Positions 5,664-20,246 of a stretch of 20,246 nucleotides of DNA are shown here, piece by piece. Numbering within the stretch: position 1 is the first letter of the stretch; every line of letters begins with the position of its first letter. Below the pieces are notes generated by a model. It searched no databases and was not told the DNA's origin. It saw only the letters and a program-made list of their open reading frames with translations. Position numbers and translations under genes: made by a program. Source of the DNA: a virus; the IMG/VR virus record IMGVR_UViG_3300011114_000044, positions 1 to 20,246 of that record. One strand, 5' to 3'.

Positions 5664-6020
5664 TCATCCTTTCAGTTGGTTGATCAACGTGTTCACCGTT
5701 GCTCGTAAATTGGCTACGTCATTTGCAAGCTGCTGAACATCAGACACCAACTTACCATAATCGTCAAGGCTCGGCACAGTCGCCCCGCCTATTGTATAAC
5801 CCGTGCCCTGCGCAGTCACGCGAGTCATGTTCTGGGTCGCCGGGTTGGACACCGTAACTTGACCCTTGACAACAGCACGGACTGAGTTGTCGGCACCCCG
5901 AGCGCCAGTCAGCAACTCGATGTTCTCTTTCATGGCAGTCAGGGTGTTGAACTGCCAATCACTCAGCCCGCCTTGCGGGATAGACGGTATCGCTGTGAAG
6001 CGTGGGCCACGTGTTGCCAT
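5664..6020 (-). CDS. Small phage structural protein with C-terminal coiled coil
   Basis: A 118-residue protein. The N-terminus has a basic, Pro-containing segment (RGPRFTAIPSIPQGGLSDWQ). The middle (about 45-85) is Thr/Val/Gly-rich and likely beta. Residues 84-116 form a heptad-like coiled coil (YGKLVSDVQQLANDVANLRA onward). The TGA of the nozzle gene and this ATG share a base (TGATG at 6018-6022), which indicates coupled translation. I do not recognise a family. A tail or core accessory protein that oligomerises through the coiled coil is the likeliest reading, from its place between nozzle and internal proteins. Confidence 0.75.
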   Translation of the reverse strand: MATRGPRFTAIPSIPQGGLSDWQFNTLTAMKENIELLTGARGADNSVRAVVKGQVTVSNPATQNMTRVTAQGTGYTIGGATVPSLDDYGKLVSDVQQLANDVANLRATVNTLINQLKG

Positions 6021-8677
6021 CAGACCTCCCTCAATCCAAGCATGGTTTCGGCCAGATAGATGGCACGAACCCGAATGTTGCCTTCGACACCAACCTCAAA
6101 TGTATCGGTACGGTACCCGGTCGGCAGGCGGAACCCATCTACATCATTGACTGCTGTCGTAAAGATCAGTTGCTTGTTTACCCAGAGGTAAAACGTAATC
6201 TCGTCCGCCGTGTTCCAGTTGGTCAATGCGTTGTTCCACACCTGCACATCGGCATCCCATGTCTGTGTCACGGTGGAGTAGTCTGCAACCACCCGCGCTG
6301 CGCCGAGGTTGATCATGTCTTTGGTAACGATGACCTTGGACTTCCACTCCTGAATTACAGGCGGCTGCGCAAGGTTGTCCCATTCGTAGATGTCACCATT
6401 GGTGCCGCTGACGTAGTACACGATGCCGTCGATGGAGTCATAGAACGAAGCCGAGAAGCTGTAGTCTGCGTTGACGAAGAACCCGCCGACCTTGGCGTCC
6501 TGCTCGAAGATGAAGGCACCCGTCGAATGCGAGGCGAAGTAGTTATCGCCGTAGTACTCAGCCACCACCGTCTTGGGGCTGATAGTGGACTGCCACGTGT
6601 CGTTGTTGTACAGCAGCTTGGTGATGATGCCCGCGCCACTGCTGGGCGAATACACCGCCAGTCCGTCGTGCGTGGAATACACGATGCCATAGCCCATCGT
6701 CACTATGCTGTTCTTGTTCAGGCACGGAAAGTTGGCGTCGATCCGCGCTGTGGACATGCCATTGGCTGGGTCAGACCCCGAGACGATGTACGGGTACGAG
6801 TCTGTCGTCACCAGCGTAGAGCCGCTGATCGCCGCGATACCCACGACGTTGTGTTCGAGGTTGACAGCATACGAAGCAGGCCATGCGTGCGGGGCACTCG
6901 GCTCGGAGAAGTACAACGTGTTGCCGACAAAGCCCACGAGGATGTTGTTTTGGATGGCGGTCAACCCCTGCAAGTCTTCGGGCGGCGCGTCGTAGTTGTC
7001 CGTGGCAAGGATGTCAAACAGGTCACGCGAGTCAAAGTCATCGAGGAAGGTGTACACACCGCCATCACCCCAGTACCGCGCAGTCGTGGTGGGCGGGTTC
7101 TCAGAGACATCATGGAACATGGTGCCTGCGGCTACGATGGTGTTGCCAACGTTCCCTGCCACCTGCGCGTACTCGAACGTGTAATCGTCAATCACATCCG
7201 TGACGATGCCACCCGTGATGTCGACGGACGCCACGGTGCAACCACTGATCTTGAAGCGATCATCGACCGACAGGTTGTGGGGGAAGATCAGTGCGACCCG
7301 CGAGACGTTGGCTGTGCGCTGCACCGAGGCCAACCCGGTAGGAAACCACAGGGTCTGGAGCAAGTAGAACTCCGTGCCCGACGCAGCCGCCAGCGTGCGA
7401 TAGAGCTTCACACCACGCACAAAGTTGTTGCCAGACGGTTTGACCGTGGGGATGTTGGACACCGTGACAGAGATGCCTTCCTTGATAAACAAGTCGTCGG
7501 ACGGCTTGGCCGCGATGGACTCCTCGTCCCAAGGTGTAATCCATGTGAAGGTGTATGACCGCGCTTGCGTCAGCCCACCGAGGTTGACCTTACCAGCACT
7601 GCTCGTGGTTGTAGTGATCTGGGGGCCGGGGCTGAAGTAAGTGAAGGTCGTTGTGTTGGTGACTGTGCATTCGACGTTGGTCGCGTTCAGGTTGCGGATG
7701 TCCCACTTCACAGTGCCGCTGGTCGTGTTGGGCACCGTTGTGATGATGTCAAACGTGTTGGCCGCGACATTGGTGACAGTGTACGTGCCGTCGGTGGCAG
7801 TACCAGATGTGAAATCCAACGTCACCTGTGCGCCGTTTGACAATCCGTGGGCGGTAAGCGTAACCTGAATGGTTGTAGTGCCCGAGTTTACCCACGTAAT
7901 GTTGCCCGACCGAGCGGCTGCTACCGGGGCTGTGATAGCAAAAGTGTCCTTGTCAATCACGCTGACCGAGTACGCGCCGTCAATGGTGGGGTCGGCGCTG
8001 AACTGGAGGTTTGTCACCATGCCGGTTTGAAGACCATGATTAGTAATCACGACGGTCAGCGACAGTGTGCCAGAATTCTGGTTATAGGTGCCAGTGCGGG
8101 TCGATCCTGTCTGCGTGTATGTGCCGTTGATGTAGCTAAACCCGGAGATGGACACAGAGTTGCCAGTGCGCAGACCATGCACTGCGGAGGTCACGATGGT
8201 GACGATGTTGGCTGCATCACGGGCATACGAAGTAGTCGTCTTCTCGGTGAAGGTTCCAGCGGTCGTTGTCAGTTGTAGCGCATCATCAGGCGGTGCCAGT
8301 CCGAGGTCATAGTACCCCGTGGGGTACGGCGCTGCGCCAGTCGTTGCCAGTTCGTAGTTGCTGACCTTGGGCTTACCGTCGCCCGAGTAGTAGAACCGTT
8401 GCTCATCCTTGTCAGTCTTGGAGGCGACAGCGATGTCCACATCAGTGAGCCACGAGAGCCACTTCTTCTCATCAGTGTCTGGGTCGCGCAGCGCGAACAG
8501 CGTCTTGATTGCGCCCGTGCGGGCTGTATTTGCAATCACAACAGGTTGTGGATAGGGGATCAGATCACCGGAGTACAGCTTGCAGTTGTTCGCAATTTGG
8601 CCCGCCGTGTTGGGAAGCAACTCCGGCGAAATTTTCGGTGCGGTACCGAGGAAGCCTATGATCTTGACGCCAGCCAT
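6020..8677 (-). CDS. Tail nozzle protein (T7 gp12-like tail tubular protein B)
   Basis: An 885-residue beta-rich protein, slightly longer than T7 gp12 (about 794). The N-terminus (GFLGTAPKISPELLPNTAGQ) is typical of podovirus nozzle proteins, as is the later region with YYSGDGKPKVSNY, TYTFTWITPWDEES-like sequence, VKLYRT and FSEPSAPHAWP. The nozzle forms the distal end of the short tail below the adaptor ring and is the channel for DNA ejection. Residues 157-352 are an insertion of at least three repeats, each with an HGL motif (167, 214, 277); a weaker fourth lies at about 455-506. The start overlaps the endolysin stop (TAATG). Unlike T7, the gene is separated from the adaptor genes by the fibre and lysis blocks. 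Confidence 0.9.
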   Translation of the reverse strand: MAGVKIIGFLGTAPKISPELLPNTAGQIANNCKLYSGDLIPYPQPVVIANTARTGAIKTLFALRDPDTDEKKWLSWLTDVDIAVASKTDKDEQRFYYSGDGKPKVSNYELATTGAAPYPTGYYDLGLAPPDDALQLTTTAGTFTEKTTTSYARDAANIVTIVTSAVHGLRTGNSVSISGFSYINGTYTQTGSTRTGTYNQNSGTLSLTVVITNHGLQTGMVTNLQFSADPTIDGAYSVSVIDKDTFAITAPVAAARSGNITWVNSGTTTIQVTLTAHGLSNGAQVTLDFTSGTATDGTYTVTNVAANTFDIITTVPNTTSGTVKWDIRNLNATNVECTVTNTTTFTYFSPGPQITTTTSSAGKVNLGGLTQARSYTFTWITPWDEESIAAKPSDDLFIKEGISVTVSNIPTVKPSGNNFVRGVKLYRTLAAASGTEFYLLQTLWFPTGLASVQRTANVSRVALIFPHNLSVDDRFKISGCTVASVDITGGIVTDVIDDYTFEYAQVAGNVGNTIVAAGTMFHDVSENPPTTTARYWGDGGVYTFLDDFDSRDLFDILATDNYDAPPEDLQGLTAIQNNILVGFVGNTLYFSEPSAPHAWPASYAVNLEHNVVGIAAISGSTLVTTDSYPYIVSGSDPANGMSTARIDANFPCLNKNSIVTMGYGIVYSTHDGLAVYSPSSGAGIITKLLYNNDTWQSTISPKTVVAEYYGDNYFASHSTGAFIFEQDAKVGGFFVNADYSFSASFYDSIDGIVYYVSGTNGDIYEWDNLAQPPVIQEWKSKVIVTKDMINLGAARVVADYSTVTQTWDADVQVWNNALTNWNTADEITFYLWVNKQLIFTTAVNDVDGFRLPTGYRTDTFEVGVEGNIRVRAIYLAETMLGLREV
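7622..8209 (-). repeat. HGL-motif beta-domain repeats within the nozzle
   Basis: Codes for nozzle residues 157-352. Three units share the pattern x-HGL-xxG-xxV, a short loop, DG-x-Y-x-V (or NGTY) and a TF-x-I strand. They are followed by a half unit (TTFTYFSPGP). They resemble a module often inserted into phage tail proteins that domain searches label as like the FCCH domain of ubiquitin-activating enzyme E1. That label reflects fold similarity and does not imply ubiquitin activity. Confidence 0.65.
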
Positions 8678-10601: not shown

Positions 10602-10889
10602 TTACTCCTTGTTGGACTTGGATTCGAGCTTTTTAAACAGCAGCCCGAGAGTACTGTCGATCTTGTTGAAGCCGTCTTTCATGTCGTGCTTCAACTCCTT
10701 GAAGTCGTCCTTGATGTCAGTCATTGCAACTTTGAAGTCGTCCTTGCGGACGTAGACTTCAGGGAGGTCACGTTCGATCTGCTTCATGTCGGCCTTCAAT
10801 TCTTTAATGGCATCCCAGACGACCTTCAGCACCCACCCGAAGGCGGCACCTAGTCCTGCAAACAACCAGTTGACAATCGTCTGATCCAT
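10602..10889 (-). CDS. Small membrane-anchored coiled-coil protein
   Basis: A 95-residue protein. Residues 6-27 (VNWLFAGLGAAFGWVLKVVW) form one membrane segment. Residues 28-90 are a strongly charged helix with heptad spacing of hydrophobics (WDAIKELKADMKQIERDL, and a later DMKDGFNKIDSTLGLLFKKL). This layout is seen in small phage accessory lysis proteins, for example haemolysin-XhlA-like or spanin-like proteins. I do not recognise a specific family. It may be the first gene of the lysis block. The start has an AGGGG ribosome site just inside the gap to the previous gene. Confidence 0.75.
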   Translation of the reverse strand: MDQTIVNWLFAGLGAAFGWVLKVVWDAIKELKADMKQIERDLPEVYVRKDDFKVAMTDIKDDFKELKHDMKDGFNKIDSTLGLLFKKLESKSNKE

Positions 10890-10895
10890 CGAGCT

Positions 10896-11162
10896 TTACC
10901 CCTGTGGAAGACCAGCAGGCATTACTTGCGCAGCCTGCGCAGCTTGGTATGCAGCAACAACTTCAGCGGTGTGCGTCGCTGCACAGATGGCCTTCACACG
11001 GGTATCCTCAGCCAAGTAGTCATCGCCGGGGGCAATGATGCGGCGGTGAAACGTGCCGCTGATTTGTTCGCCGTCCTCCATGATGGCGGTCTTGGTGCGC
11101 ACTTGCACGCAGCCGTTCTCGACTACTTCGATGCGGTCAACAATTTGAATTTTCTCTAGCAT
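10896..11162 (-). CDS. Conserved phage protein downstream of tail fibre genes
   Basis: An 88-residue protein opening MLEKIQIVDRIEVVENGCVQ, then VRTKTAIMEDGEQISGTFHR and an Ala/Gln-rich C-terminal helix (AAYQAAQAAQVMPAG). I recall near-identical short proteins in many phages and prophages, usually close to fibre or tail genes and without assigned function. The first 60 residues look beta-rich. Its position after three fibres makes a fibre-folding chaperone or fibre accessory possible, as does the tail-fibre-assembly-like C-terminal helix. This remains inference. The start has an AAAGGAAA site and sits behind the largest gap of the window (11163-11201), in which I see no clear promoter or terminator. 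Confidence 0.78.
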   Translation of the reverse strand: MLEKIQIVDRIEVVENGCVQVRTKTAIMEDGEQISGTFHRRIIAPGDDYLAEDTRVKAICAATHTAEVVAAYQAAQAAQVMPAGLPQG

Positions 11163-11467: not shown

Positions 11468-13168
11468 TCATTTTCCAACCCATCCTATGTTTCCGTTGCC
11501 GCTTTCCTTGACATACAAAGTGGTGCCAGCACCACCTGAAATGTTGGTGTAAAGCGCACCCGGCGAAGCGGTTACCGAACCCTCCGGGCTTCCTGTTCCA
11601 GAAGTCCACCTGTTGTTGAAACTTCCATTTGGACAGAAAGCATTTGCGCCAAGGTATCCAAACGTGACATTATTTTGGGAATACACATCGACCTGATTTC
11701 CAGATGGCGCTCTTAGAAATGCGGTTGGTGATCCTTGAATGGCTGTTGCAAACTCAACTTGCACGTTTCTTGTAAACGGGGTGTAGTCCCCAAGAAATGA
11801 TGTCACAATGAACTGACTTGGAACGGCAACACTCAAAACACTTGCGTATCCACGTTTTGCTGGGCTGATCAATGTGCATTGGAACATTGTTGCGCCATAG
11901 TCGCCAAGCGCTCCAGTTCGCGTGTATGTTTCGTAGTACACGTTGACAGATTTCAAAGCGGCAGTACCCGACCCGGCAAAGCCAACATAGTTGCAAGTAT
12001 GCGTAGCAGCCGATCCAATGTGGTAAACGCTTGTGTTATCAGGCTGTGTACCCCATGCTGTGTCAACCGTAGCAACTTTTGTGGTGCCGTTGTAATTTGA
12101 AATGGTGCGTGCTTGTCCAGCGCCTGTTCCAGTCTCAATCAAAACTCGGTAGCCAGTCCACTTTTGACTAACACTGCTTGCGCTGGCCGCAAGGGTGATC
12201 GTCAATGCGCCGCCTGCTTGCGCTGTTCCATCAGTCGTGTCAAACACCAAACTCTCGACAGAACCAGTGGTCATTACAAAGTCGCCGCGATCTACGCGAA
12301 TGCCTTGATACGTGAATTGTGCTTCGCAGTTTACAAGCGCGTTTGCGCCGCCGTCACTTTCGAGCCAGAAACAAATGAAGCCAAATGCTTTAACGGTCAA
12401 CCATGTGTTGTAGTAGCCGTTGTTTGTGGTGTACATGCAAATCGTATATCCCACGATATTGATGTTTTCGATAGTTGAGTAGCCGGTGCTACCCATGTTC
12501 AAACCGATGGTGTTTGACTCTAGGTGGTATCTGGTCGCACTCGTGGGTACTGGAGAAAATGTCCCGCTGATAGTGGCAACTTTAGTAGTTCCGTTGTACG
12601 CAGTAATGTTCCCTTGTTGTGGTGAGCCGGGGCCACCTTCCAGTTTTACAAGCCAGCCAACATAATAGTTAGTAACAGCACTGGAAGTGGAATCAAGGAT
12701 GATCGTGTTTGCACTACCACCTTGCGCTAGACCAAGTACACCAAGCGCGTTGTGCAGTGAATTTTCAATTGCAAAGTCTCGCATATCCCACCCAACAGTT
12801 CTGTCGCCATATGCGGGATTTTCCCCGTACTGACCGCGAATTGCTGATTTGCCGACAAAAGAGGTACTGATGAACGTGCTTCTCGGGCCTTCACCTTGAA
12901 GACACGCATAGTCTTTGGCAACAATTGAGTCTGCGATTCTGTATGTGCCAGCAGGCATGAACACCACAGGACGCGCTATATATGATGTAGGATTGCCTCG
13001 CAGCCTCGCGTACTCTAATGCTGCGTTGATGCCTGTGACAATGGCCGCGCCGTCTTGCGCCGCAACATTATGGGTTTGAATCAGAGGAATTTGTGCTGCT
13101 GGGATAAAGTCAAACACATTGACGCAAGCACCCTCGATCATCGAATACGAAACTTTTGTGAGTGCCAT
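11468..13168 (-). CDS. Tailspike with pectate-lyase-like beta-helix
   Basis: A 566-residue protein. Residues 1-20 (MALTKVSYSMIEGACVNVFD) are an N-terminal anchor found on many phage fibres. Residues 35-110 match the opening of the pectate-lyase-like right-handed beta-helix (DGAAIVTGINAALEYAR, then FMPAGTYRI). Two inserted copies of a small beta domain lie at 153-217 and 322-385. The protein ends with a GSPEGSVTASPGALYTN segment and a TTLYVKESGNGNIGWVGK tail, a C-terminal ending common to many phage fibres. It should trimerise, bind and possibly cleave a surface polysaccharide of the host; catalytic residues cannot be assigned from sequence alone. A ribosome site AAGGTG overlaps the end of the preceding fibre gene. 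Confidence 0.85.
   Translation of the reverse strand: MALTKVSYSMIEGACVNVFDFIPAAQIPLIQTHNVAAQDGAAIVTGINAALEYARLRGNPTSYIARPVVFMPAGTYRIADSIVAKDYACLQGEGPRSTFISTSFVGKSAIRGQYGENPAYGDRTVGWDMRDFAIENSLHNALGVLGLAQGGSANTIILDSTSSAVTNYYVGWLVKLEGGPGSPQQGNITAYNGTTKVATISGTFSPVPTSATRYHLESNTIGLNMGSTGYSTIENINIVGYTICMYTTNNGYYNTWLTVKAFGFICFWLESDGGANALVNCEAQFTYQGIRVDRGDFVMTTGSVESLVFDTTDGTAQAGGALTITLAASASSVSQKWTGYRVLIETGTGAGQARTISNYNGTTKVATVDTAWGTQPDNTSVYHIGSAATHTCNYVGFAGSGTAALKSVNVYYETYTRTGALGDYGATMFQCTLISPAKRGYASVLSVAVPSQFIVTSFLGDYTPFTRNVQVEFATAIQGSPTAFLRAPSGNQVDVYSQNNVTFGYLGANAFCPNGSFNNRWTSGTGSPEGSVTASPGALYTNISGGAGTTLYVKESGNGNIGWVGK
12014..12205 (-). repeat. Tailspike internal module, copy 2
   Basis: Codes for tailspike residues about 322-385. 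It shares with copy 1 (12518-12712) the core YNGTTKVAT, a following strand, a T/P-rich loop and a Y-H-hydrophobic ending (RYHL or VYHI). Confidence 0.65.
12518..12712 (-). repeat. Tailspike internal module, copy 1
   Basis: Codes for tailspike residues about 153-217, a roughly 60-residue beta domain with G-Q/QQG, AYNGTTKVATISGTF and RYHL. It is the partner of the module at 12014-12205. Confidence 0.65.
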
Positions 13169-13171
13169 GTT

Positions 13172-14356
13172 TTACACCTTGTAGGTGATACTGAAATACA
13201 GCCGACCCGTGGCAAAACCAGTCGATGGAAAAGCTCCATTGACTGTGATGACCATCCCTGTTCCACCAGCGCCAACATACACACTGTCTGCCCCACCAGA
13301 CAAGCAGTCCGCATAGGACACCGAACCAGTTGCCGAGTAAGCAGATGTGCTAGTCGTGGCAAACGGTAAGCCGCCAATGTAGCAAAGCCCACCGCCTGCT
13401 GAAGTGACCGTGAAGAACATCGTACCTTGCACTGCTACGGTATCACCAATTTTTGTGTACTTACCAACAACCGTGCCGTAAGTAAACGTAGGAGGCGTGT
13501 CACGAGTAAAGGTTGGCGTCCAGTCGCCTTCTTCATAGTCAGCCAGCAACTCGCTGGTCATCGTGCCAGAGCCTGATGATGTAATAGAAAAGTCAATGCC
13601 TTTGCCCGAGGTGCCGATGACAATATCTCCGCCGACAAACCTGTGCTTGGTCACGTTGGCGTCGCCGTATGTGTATTCATTGCTGACACCAGCAGCGGAT
13701 GGTTGCGCGTTGTATCCAAAAAACCCGCAATTTGAACCTGTCGTTAGGTCGTAACCAGCATAAAATCCGCAGCCGGTGTTGTTCGAAGCTGTTGACGAAC
13801 GCAACGACCCCCAGCCTACGCCGGTATTTGCTGCACCCGAGACGTTTAAAACAAGACTGTACGTTCCAACGCCAACATTAGAATTACCACCAACATTTGA
13901 TTGCAATGCGTTGCCACCAATTGCGGTGTTTTCAATGCCACCCGTGTTCAGCATCAAAGCTGTGCGCCCAAACGCCGCATTCAAACTTCCCGCAACGTTT
14001 GCAGCCAGCGCACTAACACCAACCGCCGTATTCGTCGAGACACGGCTCGCGCCCTTACCAACAGCAATTCCATTGACAACAAGATCGCTGGAAAACGTCT
14101 GCACGCCCGTAAACGTCTGCGCTGCGTCAGTACGTGCCGCAGTAAAATTTGCGTCGGGCACAGTCATTGTGCGAGTCGCCGCAGCAGCAGGCCCAGCGAT
14201 CTGAAGCAAACCAGTTGTTGCGTTCGACCGGATGTTTTTTACCGTGAGATCGTTAACCGCCACTTTCTTGGTGGTACTGGACTGCACAATAGGCAGCACC
14301 TCGGTGCCTGCCAACGCCGAAGCAGTTGTCAATGCGGAAATTTTTGCATCAGCCAT
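13172..14356 (-). CDS. Tail fibre with YadA-head-like repeats and C-terminal receptor-binding domain
   Basis: A 394-residue protein. Residues 1-38 (MADAKISALTTASALAGTEV onward) are an N-terminal attachment segment seen in many phage fibres. Residues 70-98 (NFTAARTDAAQTFTGVQTFS) are a typical fibre-shaft linker. Residues 109-225 contain about seven units of 16-17 residues with an N-T-x-V/I-G-x-x-A/S-L pattern, resembling the left-handed roll of trimeric autotransporter heads. Residues 273-394 (YEEGDWTPTF, GKYTKIGDTVAVQGTMFF) form a beta-sandwich tip common in phage fibres and likely contact the receptor. An SD of GAGGAA lies at 14362-14367. The middle part has no Cys-rich or enzymatic motif, so a binding rather than cutting role is expected. 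Confidence 0.87.
   Translation of the reverse strand: MADAKISALTTASALAGTEVLPIVQSSTTKKVAVNDLTVKNIRSNATTGLLQIAGPAAAATRTMTVPDANFTAARTDAAQTFTGVQTFSSDLVVNGIAVGKGASRVSTNTAVGVSALAANVAGSLNAAFGRTALMLNTGGIENTAIGGNALQSNVGGNSNVGVGTYSLVLNVSGAANTGVGWGSLRSSTASNNTGCGFYAGYDLTTGSNCGFFGYNAQPSAAGVSNEYTYGDANVTKHRFVGGDIVIGTSGKGIDFSITSSGSGTMTSELLADYEEGDWTPTFTRDTPPTFTYGTVVGKYTKIGDTVAVQGTMFFTVTSAGGGLCYIGGLPFATTSTSAYSATGSVSYADCLSGGADSVYVGAGGTGMVITVNGAFPSTGFATGRLYFSITYKV
13682..14032 (-). repeat. Tandem 17-residue repeats in tail fibre
   Basis: Codes for fibre residues 109-225. Units begin NTAVG, NAAFG, NTAIG, NVGVG, NTGVG, NTGCG and NCGFF, at steps of 17, 17, 17, 17, 16 and 16 residues. Repetition is at protein level; the DNA copies are well diverged. 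Confidence 0.8.
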
Positions 14357-14371: not shown

Positions 14372-15829
14372 TTAGCGGCCAGCGCCGCACCAGTTGATCA
14401 TCGCTGTGACTGTACAACCACCGCCAAGCCCCCCAGCGTATGAGGCTTGGAACTGTAGATTCGTACCAGACACAGCAACGGTTGCTACCACTTGAACAGG
14501 TAGCGTGTTGACAAGATCAGTTAGCGTGACAGTGGTGCCGTTAAAAACAAAACGCGATTCCCGGTATCCGACATTGCCAGCACTGGTTGCAATCGCAACC
14601 ATTAGCGTGCCGATGACCTGATTGCCATTGGTCGCCCCAAGGGTACTCCAGAGATTCTTCGTGATCGGCAGATCACCATCTCGGGTGCTACCCGTATCAC
14701 TGAAGACCCCACCAAACATGCGTGGTTGCGTAACTCCTTGCGGCGTGTCAAACAAAGTATCAAAAGCAACGCCAGCCAAATCTTGGCGCGTTCTGTTTAT
14801 TTTCTGAAGGACATTACCAGTTGTGGCGTCCCGAATGGCTTGTGTGGTATCAGACGTTGGGTAGTTTTGAATTACCAAAGCACCTAAAGCACGGGTTTGA
14901 ATCGTGTAGCCTTGTTTCATGCTCAAAATCAACGCAGGAAACACTAATGAAGGTACTGTCCCTGCAATGATCTGCATAGCAGTATCAAACGCTGGCGCTC
15001 CGCTCGCCGTGGTTGCATAGCTTAACAACAACCGATCTATATTTTCTTCAAATGTAAGATTAAACCGATTGCCTGCGGGGTCAGCGTTTAATGTAGATCG
15101 TTGGAACAACAGGTCTGTTGAACCACCATTGGTCGCTGGCTGCGCTTGAATGAAATGGCTATCAGTCGTAAACGCCAAACCTCTTGTAAAATAAGTTGCG
15201 GTTCCGGGCTGACTGTTTTGAATGCCAATAACATTGTTATTAGTAACTGCATCAACAATAAAAGTCAAAACATTACTACCTACGCTGTATCGTAATCTAC
15301 CAGCAAATGCGTTGCTAACATTGTAGGTTGTTGCGCCAATCTTGATAAACGTGTTGCCTGCTGCTTGAAAACAATCTGTCCAAACATCTGGTGATGCGTC
15401 AAGCAAATAGGTTCCACTTGGAATAAAGTAGCGAGTATTTACCGCCCTAGCTAATGTAAATGCGGCAGTATCGTTCGTAACCCCATCCCCGACGGCCCCA
15501 AAATCTCGAACCGATACGATGCGATCCTGCACATACCCAACGACTGACCCAGCAGTCACGCGCAACTCAAACCGCGACCCGGCAGCAAACGAGTTGGCCG
15601 TCGAGCCGTCTTGCGCACGTGTGATGGTCAGGGAATCTCCAGAACGCACCGTGACCTTCACGATCTCCAGCGTGCCGCCTGTGCTCTCCAGCGTGGCGTA
15701 GAAGTAGTCGGTCGCGCCCAGTGCAGGGAAGCTGGCCCCGTTGCCCGTCTGGAGCACGGCACCCGTGTCCGACGCATTGATTGCGGTGGCAAGATAGCCT
15801 ACGGCGTTGTTCTTGAGTTGGATTCCCAT
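14372..15829 (-). CDS. Chimeric tailspike: shared anchor domain plus pectate-lyase-type start and unrelated body
   Basis: A 485-residue protein. Residues 1-93 are about 52% identical, without gaps, to the free 109-residue protein at 16327-16656 (common core LGATDYFYATL, EIVKVT, SRFE). Residues 108-140 (VRDFGAVGDGVTNDTAAF, then FIPSGTYLL) are the opening of a pectate-lyase-like beta-helix. The body (about 150-480) then departs from a clear helix pattern and ends beta-rich with AMINWCGAGR. The DNA of the body is much poorer in GC (about 36% over 15181-15300) than the anchor (about 62% over 15601-15720), which points to module exchange. Its role is probably host-surface binding. The start lies two bases after the stop of the 42-residue gene. 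Confidence 0.83.
   Translation of the reverse strand: MGIQLKNNAVGYLATAINASDTGAVLQTGNGASFPALGATDYFYATLESTGGTLEIVKVTVRSGDSLTITRAQDGSTANSFAAGSRFELRVTAGSVVGYVQDRIVSVRDFGAVGDGVTNDTAAFTLARAVNTRYFIPSGTYLLDASPDVWTDCFQAAGNTFIKIGATTYNVSNAFAGRLRYSVGSNVLTFIVDAVTNNNVIGIQNSQPGTATYFTRGLAFTTDSHFIQAQPATNGGSTDLLFQRSTLNADPAGNRFNLTFEENIDRLLLSYATTASGAPAFDTAMQIIAGTVPSLVFPALILSMKQGYTIQTRALGALVIQNYPTSDTTQAIRDATTGNVLQKINRTRQDLAGVAFDTLFDTPQGVTQPRMFGGVFSDTGSTRDGDLPITKNLWSTLGATNGNQVIGTLMVAIATSAGNVGYRESRFVFNGTTVTLTDLVNTLPVQVVATVAVSGTNLQFQASYAGGLGGGCTVTAMINWCGAGR
15649..15667. repeat. 19-base exact repeat, tailspike anchor copy
   Basis: Identical to 16476-16494; codes for the EIVKVT core of the anchor domain. A second near-repeat lies at 15694-15722, with three mismatches in 29 bases to 16521-16549. 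Confidence 0.85.
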
Positions 15830-15831
15830 AT

Positions 15832-15960
15832 TTACTCCAGCAGGATGTACGAGCCGTCTTCTTGCAGCATATCATCGCCGTCTTCGAGCAGCAGGTTGTT
15901 GAGGAGCGCAGAGGTCTGCCTCCGAATGCGCCGCATGATCAGGACGATGTTCAGCGCCAT
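15832..15960 (-). CDS. 42-residue protein with acidic octapeptide repeats
   Basis: An ATG at 15960 follows the upstream TGA by one base, and the TAA at 15832 sits two bases before the next ATG, so the frame exactly fills the space between two genes. The N-terminus is basic and hydrophobic (MALNIVLIMRRIRRQ). The C-terminus is two and a half units of eight residues, LLLEDGDD / MLQEDGSY / ILLE. EDG-type repeats like this occur at the ends of phage structural proteins, but I know no function. The exact packing and typical start spacing make a real gene likely, while its small size keeps this uncertain. The upstream 109-residue protein ends in a similar DDYLLL. Confidence 0.65.
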   Translation of the reverse strand: MALNIVLIMRRIRRQTSALLNNLLLEDGDDMLQEDGSYILLE

Positions 15961-15961
15961 A

Positions 15962-16315
15962 TCAGCCTCGCAGCACCACAGTCACGTCAACGGCGTTGGC
16001 CGCGCCACCCGTGATCACCGGGCGGATATACATCGCAGCAGTCGTAAACTCAAACAGCGCAGCCGCTGTGGCGCTGATCACGGTGCCGCCCAAGTCCCTC
16101 ATGTCGAAGTAAGTCGTGCCGTCGTTGGAAACTTGCAGCCCGATGGTTGCGCCGCCGAAGGTGCCGCCGAACTGCACAGCGCCCGCTACAGCGGCTTGCG
16201 CGGCGACGGGGAAGGTCGTAAGGGTGTCGCCAGTCACGATGTCCGCCCACGTCACACGGGGCGTTTTACCCGACTGGGTGGCGACGAAATCAAATGCGGG
16301 GGTTACGGTAGCCAT
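15962..16315 (-). CDS. Small beta-rich structural protein
   Basis: A 117-residue protein, Thr/Val/Gly/Ala-rich and predicted all-beta (AGAVQFGGTFGGATIGLQVS, NDGTTYFDM, MYIRPVITGG, VDVTVVLRG). The pattern of a strand pair followed by SNDGT and a C-terminal IRP strand resembles a small jelly-roll or discoidin-like module seen in phage tail and baseplate accessory proteins. I do not recognise a named family. It lies between the free anchor protein and the 42-residue protein, upstream of the first tailspike, so a fibre-attachment or decoration role is plausible. An AAAGGAC ribosome site precedes the ATG at 16315. Confidence 0.75.
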   Translation of the reverse strand: MATVTPAFDFVATQSGKTPRVTWADIVTGDTLTTFPVAAQAAVAGAVQFGGTFGGATIGLQVSNDGTTYFDMRDLGGTVISATAAALFEFTTAAMYIRPVITGGAANAVDVTVVLRG

Positions 16316-16326
16316 GTTGTGTCCTT

Positions 16327-16656
16327 TCAGAGAAGCAAGTAGTCGTCTGTTTCGTCGATGATCGCCAGAATCGTCGCCGCAGTGATCCGGTGCTCAAAGC
16401 GGCTATTGGCCGCAAACGGGATCGCCAGTGTGCTCTCCTGTGCCCGAACCATCGTCATCACGTCATCGGTGCGAGCCGTGACCTTCACGATCTCGAAGTT
16501 GTTGTTCACGTCACTCAAGGTGGCATAGAAGTAATCGGTCGCGCCGAGGATCGGGAACAGCGCCCCCTTGCCTGCCGTAACGGTGAGCGATGTCTGCGTG
16601 CTAGACACCGCACTGGGTACGGTGGCAAAAGCGTTGTTGGTCAGTTTGATTCCCAT
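16327..16656 (-). CDS. Free-standing fibre anchor domain protein
   Basis: A 109-residue protein starting at the ATG at 16656, one base after the TGA of the adaptor-like gene. The open frame extends to 16848, but that part overlaps the upstream gene and lacks codon sense. Residues 1-93 align without gaps to the N-terminus of the 485-residue tailspike at about 48 of 93 identical positions. The shared blocks include MGIxLxNNA, LGATDYFYATL, EIVKVT, RAQ and SRFExR. The protein ends soon after the homology, in DETDDYLLL, and so carries no spike. In the tailspike the domain should mount the fibre on the tail. Alone, it may be a collar, plug or docking subunit. Family name unknown to me. Confidence 0.8.
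   Translation of the reverse strand: MGIKLTNNAFATVPSAVSSTQTSLTVTAGKGALFPILGATDYFYATLSDVNNNFEIVKVTARTDDVMTMVRAQESTLAIPFAANSRFEHRITAATILAIIDETDDYLLL
16476..16494. repeat. 19-base exact repeat, free anchor copy
   Basis: Identical to 15649-15667 and in the same orientation and reading frame, which marks the nucleotide-level duplication of the anchor domain. Confidence 0.85.
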
Positions 16657-16657
16657 G

Positions 16658-17434
16658 TCAGGCTCCAAAGGGTTGCATCCGCACCCGCATGGTGCCGCGC
16701 ACATTGCCGAGGTTGGCCCGAGCACGACGCTCAGAGGTCTGGTACACGTACTGCTTGGCGTGGTACGCAGCAAGCTCACGATCAGACCACGCTTGGCTCG
16801 GCAACACCAGAAGATGTTGCAGCGCCCCGTGCATGATGACTTCCTCAAGCTCGTCGAAGATCACCTCATCCATCGCGCTGGCGCTGCGCTTGGGCTTGAG
16901 CGCCAAGAACATGCGGCACCGGTACGGCTTGTCGTTGTTGGGAAGCGGCAGGATGATGTATTTGTCCGGGGTCACTTGCGTGATGGACTGGGGGGTGCTG
17001 GCGTCCGCGATGATGGCGTCGGGCACCGTGTACACGGGCTGGTCGTTGAACAGAGCCTCGTTGTACTCAGGCGCGTTGAACGTGCCGCTGGGCGGTGTCA
17101 GGCGCCACGCTACAGCCGGGTCTTGCCCGCTGTAGAGGTCAGCCCACTGGGGGTACAACTCGATGGCTTTCTCCATCGTCAGGCGCTCCAAGGGGCGGTC
17201 GTTGACCACCGCCTCGAACATCACATGCACGTCGGTAGTCACCGGCTTGTTGTAGGCGTACTCACTGACACCGGGCAACAAGTTGAACAGCGGCACTTGG
17301 TAGCGCCAGTACAGCGTGCGCTCGCACGTGCGGATGGCCGAGTCGCGGATGTACTGCACGATGGTGGCGTTCGGGCACCCCGGCACAGAAGCCTGCACAC
17401 GGGGCACGAGGGAAGCGAAGGTACGGTCGGCCAT
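16658..17434 (-). CDS. Second adaptor-like tail protein
   Basis: A 258-residue protein. The first half begins with helices (TFASLVPRVQASVPGCPNAT, QYIRDSAIRTCERTLYWRYQ), then a strand region (YAYNKPVTTDVHVMFEAVVN). The second half contains YIILPLPNNDKPYRCRMFLA and helices EVIMHGALQHLLVLP and AAYHAKQYVYQTSERRARAN. This order of N-terminal helices, beta region and C-terminal helical bundle is that of phage head-tail adaptor (gp11-type) proteins, and near relatives are common beside them in aquatic podoviruses. It may form part of the connector between portal and nozzle. The start shares a base with the stop of the preceding adaptor (TGATG at 17432-17436). Confidence 0.8.
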   Translation of the reverse strand: MADRTFASLVPRVQASVPGCPNATIVQYIRDSAIRTCERTLYWRYQVPLFNLLPGVSEYAYNKPVTTDVHVMFEAVVNDRPLERLTMEKAIELYPQWADLYSGQDPAVAWRLTPPSGTFNAPEYNEALFNDQPVYTVPDAIIADASTPQSITQVTPDKYIILPLPNNDKPYRCRMFLALKPKRSASAMDEVIFDELEEVIMHGALQHLLVLPSQAWSDRELAAYHAKQYVYQTSERRARANLGNVRGTMRVRMQPFGA

Positions 17435-18078
17435 CAGATCACCTGTTTCGGGTCTTGCCCGCCTGCTTCGGTATCAGTAATTGTGCGCGACTGCAACGAC
17501 ACGCCCAACCCTTGGATAAACGAGTCTTGGAACAGCTTGGCGCGGCCTGAGTTAACGTGCTCGTTGTCAATGGACTCAGCCAAGAACACCACGCCATCTA
17601 CAGTCGTAGGGAAGTAGGCGTCGGTGGGGAACGTGATCTCTTGGTCGAGGGTGTAGTCAGGCGAGGTCTGAGCGTACTCCCCGACAAGCACGACACCCGC
17701 CACGGGGGCGGGGTACACGAAGAACCTGTTGGGGTTGCGCACGTGGCGCATGAAGTTCACGGGCTGGCCGGGAGTCTCGCGCACCCAACCGGGGGCCGTG
17801 CGATCCAGTGTCTCGCGGTTGACTTCCGTGATGGCATCGCCATCCTTGACTTGGAAGATTTCGATCAACCGTGTCGAGTCCGCAGGGCAGCTTTGCAGCA
17901 CGGTGGCTGGAGTTGTCGGAATATCCCCGATCACTGCAAACAGATCAGGGCGAAGCATCACCATGCGCTTGAGCGTCTGATTGACGAACCCCAGCAGCAC
18001 CGTGTCGCTGTAGCGGAACGGAACCTTGGTGTCTTGGATCAGACGACGCGCTTCGGTGATGACTTCGTTGGGTGTCAT
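17434..18078 (-). CDS. Head-tail adaptor, DUF6682 / T7 gp11-like
   Basis: A 214-residue protein, close to the 196 residues of T7 gp11. It begins TPNEVITEARRLIQDTKVPF and RYSDTVLLGFVNQTLKRMVM, which is typical of the phage adaptor family DUF6682. A beta region follows (PADSTRLIEIFQVKDGDAIT, RNPNRFFVYPAP) and then C-terminal helices (DGVVFLAESIDNEHVNSGRA, LFQDSFIQGLGVSLQSRT). Adaptors form a ring under the portal and receive the nozzle. The start overlaps the upstream gene by ATGA at 18075-18078. Confidence in the family is good from the helix motifs; the T7 number is by analogy. Confidence 0.88.
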   Translation of the reverse strand: MTPNEVITEARRLIQDTKVPFRYSDTVLLGFVNQTLKRMVMLRPDLFAVIGDIPTTPATVLQSCPADSTRLIEIFQVKDGDAITEVNRETLDRTAPGWVRETPGQPVNFMRHVRNPNRFFVYPAPVAGVVLVGEYAQTSPDYTLDQEITFPTDAYFPTTVDGVVFLAESIDNEHVNSGRAKLFQDSFIQGLGVSLQSRTITDTEAGGQDPKQVI

Positions 18079-18983: not shown

Positions 18984-19238
18984 TTAACATTTCCACGCCC
19001 GAAGGCTTTTGTTGATCCGGCTGTTGGGGTCGTTGGCTGTCTTTGCGGAAGTCAACTTCTCTTTCATGCCGGTCATTCTTGCGCAGAACGAATCCTTGCG
19101 CGAGCCACCTTCAGGCTGCGGAGCCTTCAGTCCGGGTTTACCCGGATTGGCCTTGTTGTAGGACGCACGCCCCTTGGCGTTCAGCCCGCCTTTCTCAGAC
19201 TTGCCTTCCTTGCGAGCCCATGCTGGTGTCTTTGCCAT
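18984..19238 (-). CDS. DUF6321-like small basic phage protein
   Basis: An 84-residue protein that opens AKTPAWARKEGKSEKGGLNA and KGRASYNK, has LKAP and SFCARMTGM in the middle, and ends INKSLRAWKC. This matches a family I know as DUF6321, common in aquatic phages near portal and capsid genes. By my count it has 14 Lys and 6 Arg against 6 acidic residues. The start overlaps the stop of the fibre-like gene as TAATG (19236-19240). Function unknown; a DNA- or capsid-binding role fits the charge but is unproven. Confidence 0.8.
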   Translation of the reverse strand: MAKTPAWARKEGKSEKGGLNAKGRASYNKANPGKPGLKAPQPEGGSRKDSFCARMTGMKEKLTSAKTANDPNSRINKSLRAWKC

Positions 19239-20246
19239 TACGCAATCCTTTCAGCGGAGATGATTGCAGATGGGATCGCTGGGATCGACGGCGGGCCAAT
19301 GGCCGGTACCGTGAAGTCCAGCGTGACTGCGACATTCTCGGGAAGCCAATACACTTGGATGTACTGACTTGCAGTCACGGTTGCGTAGAACACGATCTGG
19401 AAGAACGCACTGCCGCCATCTGAGGCTTTTGGTATTGATATTTTGGTGGCAGAGCGAGCTATGTTCGTGCCATTCAGCGCAAACCAGACCGTTATATCGT
19501 GGTCAGCCGTATCCGAGTTGGCGAACTGGAGGTTTGGCATCACAGCATAGGTACCCGCCGCAGCAAAGGTCAAGCGCGTGAGATTGGTACCATCTGTCAC
19601 CATAGTGATACCAGCGCCTGCGACCTCCGTCGTACCAAACTTCACAGCGGTTGGGACAGTCGTGCTACCCGTCTGGTCGGTAACATCAGAGAACGCAGCG
19701 TAGGCCCGGTTTGTAATGGTGCTGAACGGTACCTTGCCGCTCACCACGTCGATGTTGGTGATGTTCACCTCGCCCGTGCCCTTGGGCGTGATGTTTAGGT
19801 CGATGTTGGTGTCGGTGCCATCAGCGGCTAGTGTGCTGCCATTGAGGTTGCATCCTGTGGCTGCATTGCCAGTTGCCAGTGTTACGGACTCGACCAGCGT
19901 CATGCCGGAGAACGAGCCGCTAAACACCACGCCCGACACAGTGCCGCCCGTGATGGCGACAGCGCCCGAGTTCTGGGTCGCCATCGTGCCGAGGCCCAGC
20001 GCCGTGCGGGCGTTGCTGGCACTGTCAAATGCAATGTTGGAACCCAGCATGAGGTTGCCTGTGGTGGCCTGCACCGTGTTGCCGGTCAACTGCACGTTGC
20101 CGACCGAGGCCGACGTGGTGCCAACCTTCAGCGCCGTGGCGACGCCCGTGCCGCCGTAGACCGTCTTCCCGGCTGCGGTCGGGCCGTCGTCAACATGCAG
20201 CAGTTGATCGAACGTATAGGCAATGGGGGAGCCGGTACGGTTGGTT
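19238..20246 (-). CDS. Virion fibre / decoration protein, C-terminal part, cut by window edge
   Basis: The frame is open to the right edge with no start needed inside the window, so the N-terminus is missing. A GTG at 20095 is only an internal codon, because the upstream codons (for example GSPIAYTFDQLLHVDDGPTA) read on in frame. Residues near the edge through about the first 170 are repetitive and Gly/Thr/Ala-rich, typical of fibre shafts. The last 120 residues (NRAYAAFSDVTDQTGSTT, GTYAVMPNLQFAN, DITVWFALNGTNIARS, SQYIQVYWLPE, then PAIPSAIIS) match a C1q/TNF-like jelly-roll widespread at the ends of phage virion proteins. Position before the adaptor genes suggests a capsid fibre or decoration protein. 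Confidence 0.83.
   Translation of the reverse strand, partial: TNRTGSPIAYTFDQLLHVDDGPTAAGKTVYGGTGVATALKVGTTSASVGNVQLTGNTVQATTGNLMLGSNIAFDSASNARTALGLGTMATQNSGAVAITGGTVSGVVFSGSFSGMTLVESVTLATGNAATGCNLNGSTLAADGTDTNIDLNITPKGTGEVNITNIDVVSGKVPFSTITNRAYAAFSDVTDQTGSTTVPTAVKFGTTEVAGAGITMVTDGTNLTRLTFAAAGTYAVMPNLQFANSDTADHDITVWFALNGTNIARSATKISIPKASDGGSAFFQIVFYATVTASQYIQVYWLPENVAVTLDFTVPAIGPPSIPAIPSAIISAERIA

Follow-up and report, generated by a model that had tools for sequence, protein, structure and literature searches.

The window analysed here is the whole of a 20,246-base virus contig, a genome fragment whose tail genes lie on the minus strand (as do all window genes given below). In the order of transcription, these genes encode adaptor I, adaptor II, a free anchor, proteins of 117 and 42 aa, an anchored spike, two anchor-less fibres, several small proteins and the nozzle. 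Adaptor I (17434..18078) matches the Pfam family SU10_adaptor (PF24175, E = 1e-19), and adaptor II (16658..17434), encoded directly upstream of the free anchor, matches phrog_437 and gp81 of Ralstonia phage GP4 in PDB entry 8jov (E = 2e-14). The nozzle (6020..8677) is similar to 8jov_A, which is present in six chains (E = 3e-57). With these counterparts of 8jov chains G and A, the partners of a GP4-type anchor are encoded on the same contig. At 885 aa the nozzle is longer than that of GP4 (577 aa), and its residues 195–254 show a weak, below-cut-off match to an endosialidase beta-barrel (PF12195). The two proteins without this anchor are a fibre with the N-terminus MADAKISALTTASALAGTEVLP (13172..14356) and a second spike (11468..13168; PF12708, E = 6e-5) beginning with MALTKVSYSMI, an N-terminal peptide that recurs in relatives. 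Part of a further anchor-less fibre, which in relatives begins MPTNLTG..TYDQLLH, lies at 19238..20095. A 674-aa protein (850–2874) with a stretch judged by eye to be lytic-transglycosylase-like (MIQVESAGKPGAVSNKGATGLMQVLPSTA) is probably an ejection protein.

The free anchor gene (16327..16656) encodes a protein of 109 aa that begins MGIKLTNN and ends DDYLLL, the codons for the terminal D-Y-L-L-L (16330..16344) immediately preceding the stop. Its paralogue forms the N-terminus (residues 1–93; 15551..15829) of a 485-aa tailspike (14372..15829), whose body starts with a weak pectate-lyase-like match over residues 104–145 (PF12708, E = 6e-6, just under the curated cut-off). Aligned without gaps, the two anchors are identical at 48 of 93 residues, compared to a mean of 7.3 (sd 2.5, maximum 19) in 20,000 shuffles, which bears out the likeness proposed from the sequence-only reading. 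According to a protein search, the record contains exactly two copies of the anchor (E = 3e-68 and 2e-28), both free of internal stops. That reading had also pointed to shared DNA, and both matches were recovered: an exact 19-base identity (15649–15667 and 16476–16494) and a 29-base stretch with three mismatches, which we located at 15693–15721 and 16520–16548. Overall DNA identity of the two anchors is 58%, the two matches coincide with the protein motifs that are conserved best, and the longest DNA word common to both anchors of a relative has between 8 and 30 bases and differs in position. The DNA similarity therefore needs no explanation beyond protein homology. These short, shifting words, together with the deep separation of the two anchor clades (see below), rule out a recent duplication or gene conversion.

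Two small genes separate the anchors. The 117-aa protein (15962..16315), for which no family or PDB match was found, is found at this place in none but the closest relatives, where it is conserved; contig L085 encodes a similar protein of 117 aa elsewhere (10768–11121). In GP4-like phages, the gene just ahead of the fibre genes encodes a different small virion protein (8jou_D). The 42-aa ORF (15832..15960), ending in EDGSYILLE, likewise occurs only in the closest relatives. The ORF is 75–100% conserved in close relatives, and its leucine-rich, acidic end (LLLEDGDDMLQEDGSYILLE) is similar to the free anchor's tail. Since only the closest relatives have these two genes between their anchors, a role of either as an anchor partner is unsupported.

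The solved reference for the anchor is chain 1 of PDB 8jov, the N-terminus of the GP4 fibre (J Mol Biol 2023 435:168258). At the sequence level it is matched by the free anchor with E = 1.3e-19 and by the spike anchor with E = 2.4e-18. The single-chain AlphaFold model of the free anchor (pLDDT 88) consists of strands and a C-terminal helix (residues 93–108) of lower confidence, with block means of 78 and 63. Foldseek superimposed this model on 8jov_1 with TM-scores of 0.88/0.83 and an rmsd of 1.6 over 107 columns, and 8jov_1 was its sole PDB match below 1e-3. Judged from these matches and the predicted fold, both copies carry the GP4-type tail-docking anchor domain, as the sequence-only reading had supposed. 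The free gene possesses this domain but no fibre or spike body, as it stops at residue 109, whereas the spike copy is fused. For the free anchor, no Pfam match was found, including to the T7 gp17-type N-terminal domain (pfam03906), and a T4gp10-like branching piece is absent, the model comprising the anchor and one helix only. PDB entry 8jov holds 18 anchor-type fibre chains. They are reportedly the nozzle-bound fibres of GP4, and their number suggests six trimers.

Relatives were gathered by two scans of viral contigs, and copies directly behind adaptor II were assigned to what we call the slot; since many loci are near-copies of each other, counts per representative are given where possible. 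The adjacency of adaptor II and the free anchor is conserved in these relatives. Among 72 complete slot copies (one more, cut by a contig end, was left aside), 62 stand alone with 106–111 residues and 10 carry cargo. In 60 of the 62 stand-alone copies the exact C-terminus is [DN]-hydrophobic-Leu-Leu-Leu, the two exceptions ending in LLLY and LLLE. The pattern persists in the 27 representatives sharing less than 90% identity: leucine occupies positions -2 and -3 in all of them and position -1 in 25, and 26 have D or N at position -5, whereas positions -6 to -13 are variable. Cargo and leucine tail are mutually exclusive, as no cargo-bearing slot copy keeps the LLL. The leucine codons are varied, and the next gene's likely ribosome-binding site follows the stop, which argues that selection acts on the C-terminal peptide itself and rules out the LLL as a by-product of that binding site. 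Pairwise comparison of 11 close copies, the window's own included, yielded a median dN/dS of 0.10 over 54 pairs; by this measure the free anchor is under purifying selection. Many contigs retain it, at identities as low as about 52%, and every slot copy seen complete was intact; relatives with a degraded copy, which the sequence-only reading had named as grounds for refutation, were thus not found. Even at two places outside the slot (L115 and L135) a bare copy shows the same C-terminal ending; on L115, which was opened, the anchors, this bare copy included, are neighbours of the MPTNLTG fibre.

The two anchors are old paralogues. In a tree of 72 anchor domains, slot and spike anchors fall into separate clades with high support (100/99), from which we conclude that the duplication is old, and the slot clade was recovered in a wider tree of 103 rows that included cultured relatives (97/93); these trees are built on few columns and their inner forks are uncertain. 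Beside a common invariant core, positions 14, 54, 64, 79, 80, and 84 distinguish the two classes. Several separate branches of the slot clade bear cargo, whose length runs from about 50 to about 960 residues. Total lengths of the cargo-bearing slot copies include 159 aa (L013/L087), 266–268 aa (L024–L027 and L068), 789 aa (L111), and 1069 aa (L143), and a slot-clade copy of 700 aa with cargo is encoded at another locus (L098). Thus, the earlier idea that the free anchor might be an acceptor for spike fusions is supported as history, the slot having gained cargo in several separate branches.

All contigs compared are fragments, and the following absences apply to the DNA present on each of them. 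The sequence-only reading had proposed a search for phages with a single copy, and one such type was found (L062/L063; contigs of 23.7 and 15.9 kb), which contains the bare copy only. The stretch from its bare anchor to the nozzle contains small genes only, some lysis-related in appearance, and its fibres, both anchor-less (736 and 325 aa), are encoded upstream. In another set (L131–L139) both anchors are bare, with separate fibre-like genes following in the two genomes that were opened (L131 and L136). The free copy thus occurs independently of the spike. The second anchor of this set (for example L136, 8325–8642; L131, 3413–3742) has 105 aa and ends in GGTYS or GGTYP, and on L131 the next small protein also ends in GGTYS. 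A further phage group (L038–L060) lacks the slot anchor; several of its genomes have a bare second anchor, while in others this anchor is fused. Among the ten phage records opened, MW202566 has the only stand-alone copy, a protein of 111 aa without the LLL end (MW202566.1, 18769–19104; L076, 5001–5336); this record is a circular phage genome assembled from spring water. Eight anchor loci were found in bacterial genomes, mostly of Nitrosospira/Nitrosovibrio. Among the phages of the collection searched, identity to adaptor II did not exceed about 26%, so the group appears to be essentially uncultured.

The reading that we favour, with a probability of roughly 0.5, is that the free gene encodes a dedicated spikeless anchor, a constitutive tail part that would have docking positions of its own and a neck closed by the leucine tail. 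By analogy, the free anchor would trimerise, as the GP4 anchor appears to do, and its trimers would sit at the junction of adaptor and nozzle in positions separate from the seats of the spike paralogue. The class-specific residues 14, 54, 64, 79, 80, and 84 suggest that the two paralogues make different contacts. From the trimer, the C-terminal helices could extend into a short three-stranded neck closed by the leucines; the hydrophobic positions -2, -6, -9, and -13 of the free anchor have a spacing that fits a short coiled-coil neck. Such an arrangement would fill the seat and brace the junction with no need for a spike, and the slot could regain a fibre by fusion, whereby the leucine tail would be replaced. 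Of the mechanisms offered by the sequence-only reading, the filling of docking sites appears to be the best. The short conserved peptide at the C-terminus could just as well serve to dock some other protein.

The latter possibility leads to the main rival of a spikeless brace or cap, namely an intermediate socket, in which the free trimer would hold a separate anchor-less fibre via the [DN]-hydrophobic-LLL tail or the top of the anchor, in the manner of KP34gp49 and KP34gp57. Intermediate anchor proteins have precedent (PMC6872550; PMC8262889), and these genomes do encode anchor-less fibres. Nearly every genome that has the slot and enough upstream sequence encodes at least one anchor-less fibre; the MPTNLTG..TYDQLLH fibre is found in nearly all of them and is absent from genomes without the slot anchor, and MALTKVSYSMI spikes and KIS-type fibres occur in many. 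The phage type with only the bare copy has exclusively anchor-less fibres (the 736- and 325-aa proteins), and where the second anchor is bare too, separate fibre-like genes follow on L131 and L136. However, an anchor plus one helix leaves no space for anything like the branching domain of KP34gp49. The MPTNLTG fibre also persists in genomes whose slot anchor bears cargo (copies of 1069 or 266 aa), many genomes with the free copy lack MALTKVSYSMI spikes, and no anchor-less fibre tracks the free state. A socket specific to the MALTKVSYSMI spikes is unsupported for the same reason, and a socket in general seems to us possible but doubtful. Less probable still is its broadest form, in which bare anchors make up a permanent second ring of fibre seats and exchangeable fibres are held non-covalently by the [DN]-hydrophobic-LLL end, which acts as a general plug; we mention it tentatively, as an unlikely case. 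If it were true, the fibre repertoire would evolve through swaps of unanchored genes or through fusion of cargo into the slot.

Co-assembly of free and spike anchors into mixed trimers, or their competition for the same seats, had been suggested as a way of setting the number of spikes. The two genes lie near each other, and their products share a fold family and an invariant core, but they form two deep clades with class-specific positions, and a mixed trimer would be expected to disrupt the trimeric body of the spike. Since, in addition, the free copy stands alone in one phage type and both copies are bare in another, this mechanism is disfavoured and in our view improbable. Even harder to defend is the notion that the free gene is simply what is left of a decaying spike gene, or a short ORF present by chance. 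It is true that the gene is short and lacks a catalytic domain, and that all examined Lessievirus anchors are fused to fibres. Yet a dN/dS of about 0.10, the absence of internal stops, the fixed length, the C-terminal motif in 60 of 62 copies and the retention across divergent contigs, even at the other loci of L115 and L135, contradict decay, for which we see hardly any likelihood.

The free anchor shows that a tail-docking domain can become a conserved tail component by itself, separate from its spike-bearing paralogue. The finding is relevant to the question of how phages with short tails acquire and lose fibres and come to combine several types of them. It also provides a testable handle, as one exact C-terminal peptide is present on the bare anchor and lost with cargo.

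Stand-alone anchors and several anchor copies per genome are known already, and the view that a free anchor is odd needs to be qualified accordingly: stand-alone intermediate anchors have been described for Klebsiella phage KP34 and for phages of the SP6/K1-5 and JD001 types (PMC6872550; PMC8262889). The KP34-type and SP6-type anchors belong to a different family from the one described here. KP34gp49, a protein of 307 aa composed of a T7-gp17-type domain and a T4gp10-like branching piece, carries KP34gp57 and is the anchor for the only active spike of KP34 (PMC6872550; PMC8262889). Like the free anchor, it stands alone and lacks a receptor-binding body; the free anchor, in contrast, is a single GP4-type domain of 109 aa that has no branching domain and is encoded together with an anchored spike. 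The fibre anchors of Ralstonia phage GP4 and of Lessievirus share the same domain (E = 1e-19, TM-score 0.88) and occur with related adaptors and nozzles. Lessievirus genomes have three to four anchor copies (four in BcepIL02, three in JC1). Every anchor examined in Lessievirus, like that of GP4, is joined to a fibre, whereas the window has one copy that is bare and ends in a conserved C-terminus. The proposed arrangement of two distinct fibre-seat sets on a single short tail has a parallel in phage SU10, for which excerpts of the published description give six seats on the adaptor for long fibres and six on the nozzle for short ones (PMC9509320), and adaptor I of the window belongs to the SU10 adaptor family. 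In those excerpts the SU10 fibres are full-length, and a bare anchor paralogue is not described (PMC9509320). Our literature search found no description of a bare anchor paralogue kept beside an anchored spike. Set against these systems, the pairing of such a paralogue, marked by a fixed C-terminal signature, with an anchored spike looks like a new arrangement of a known docking domain.
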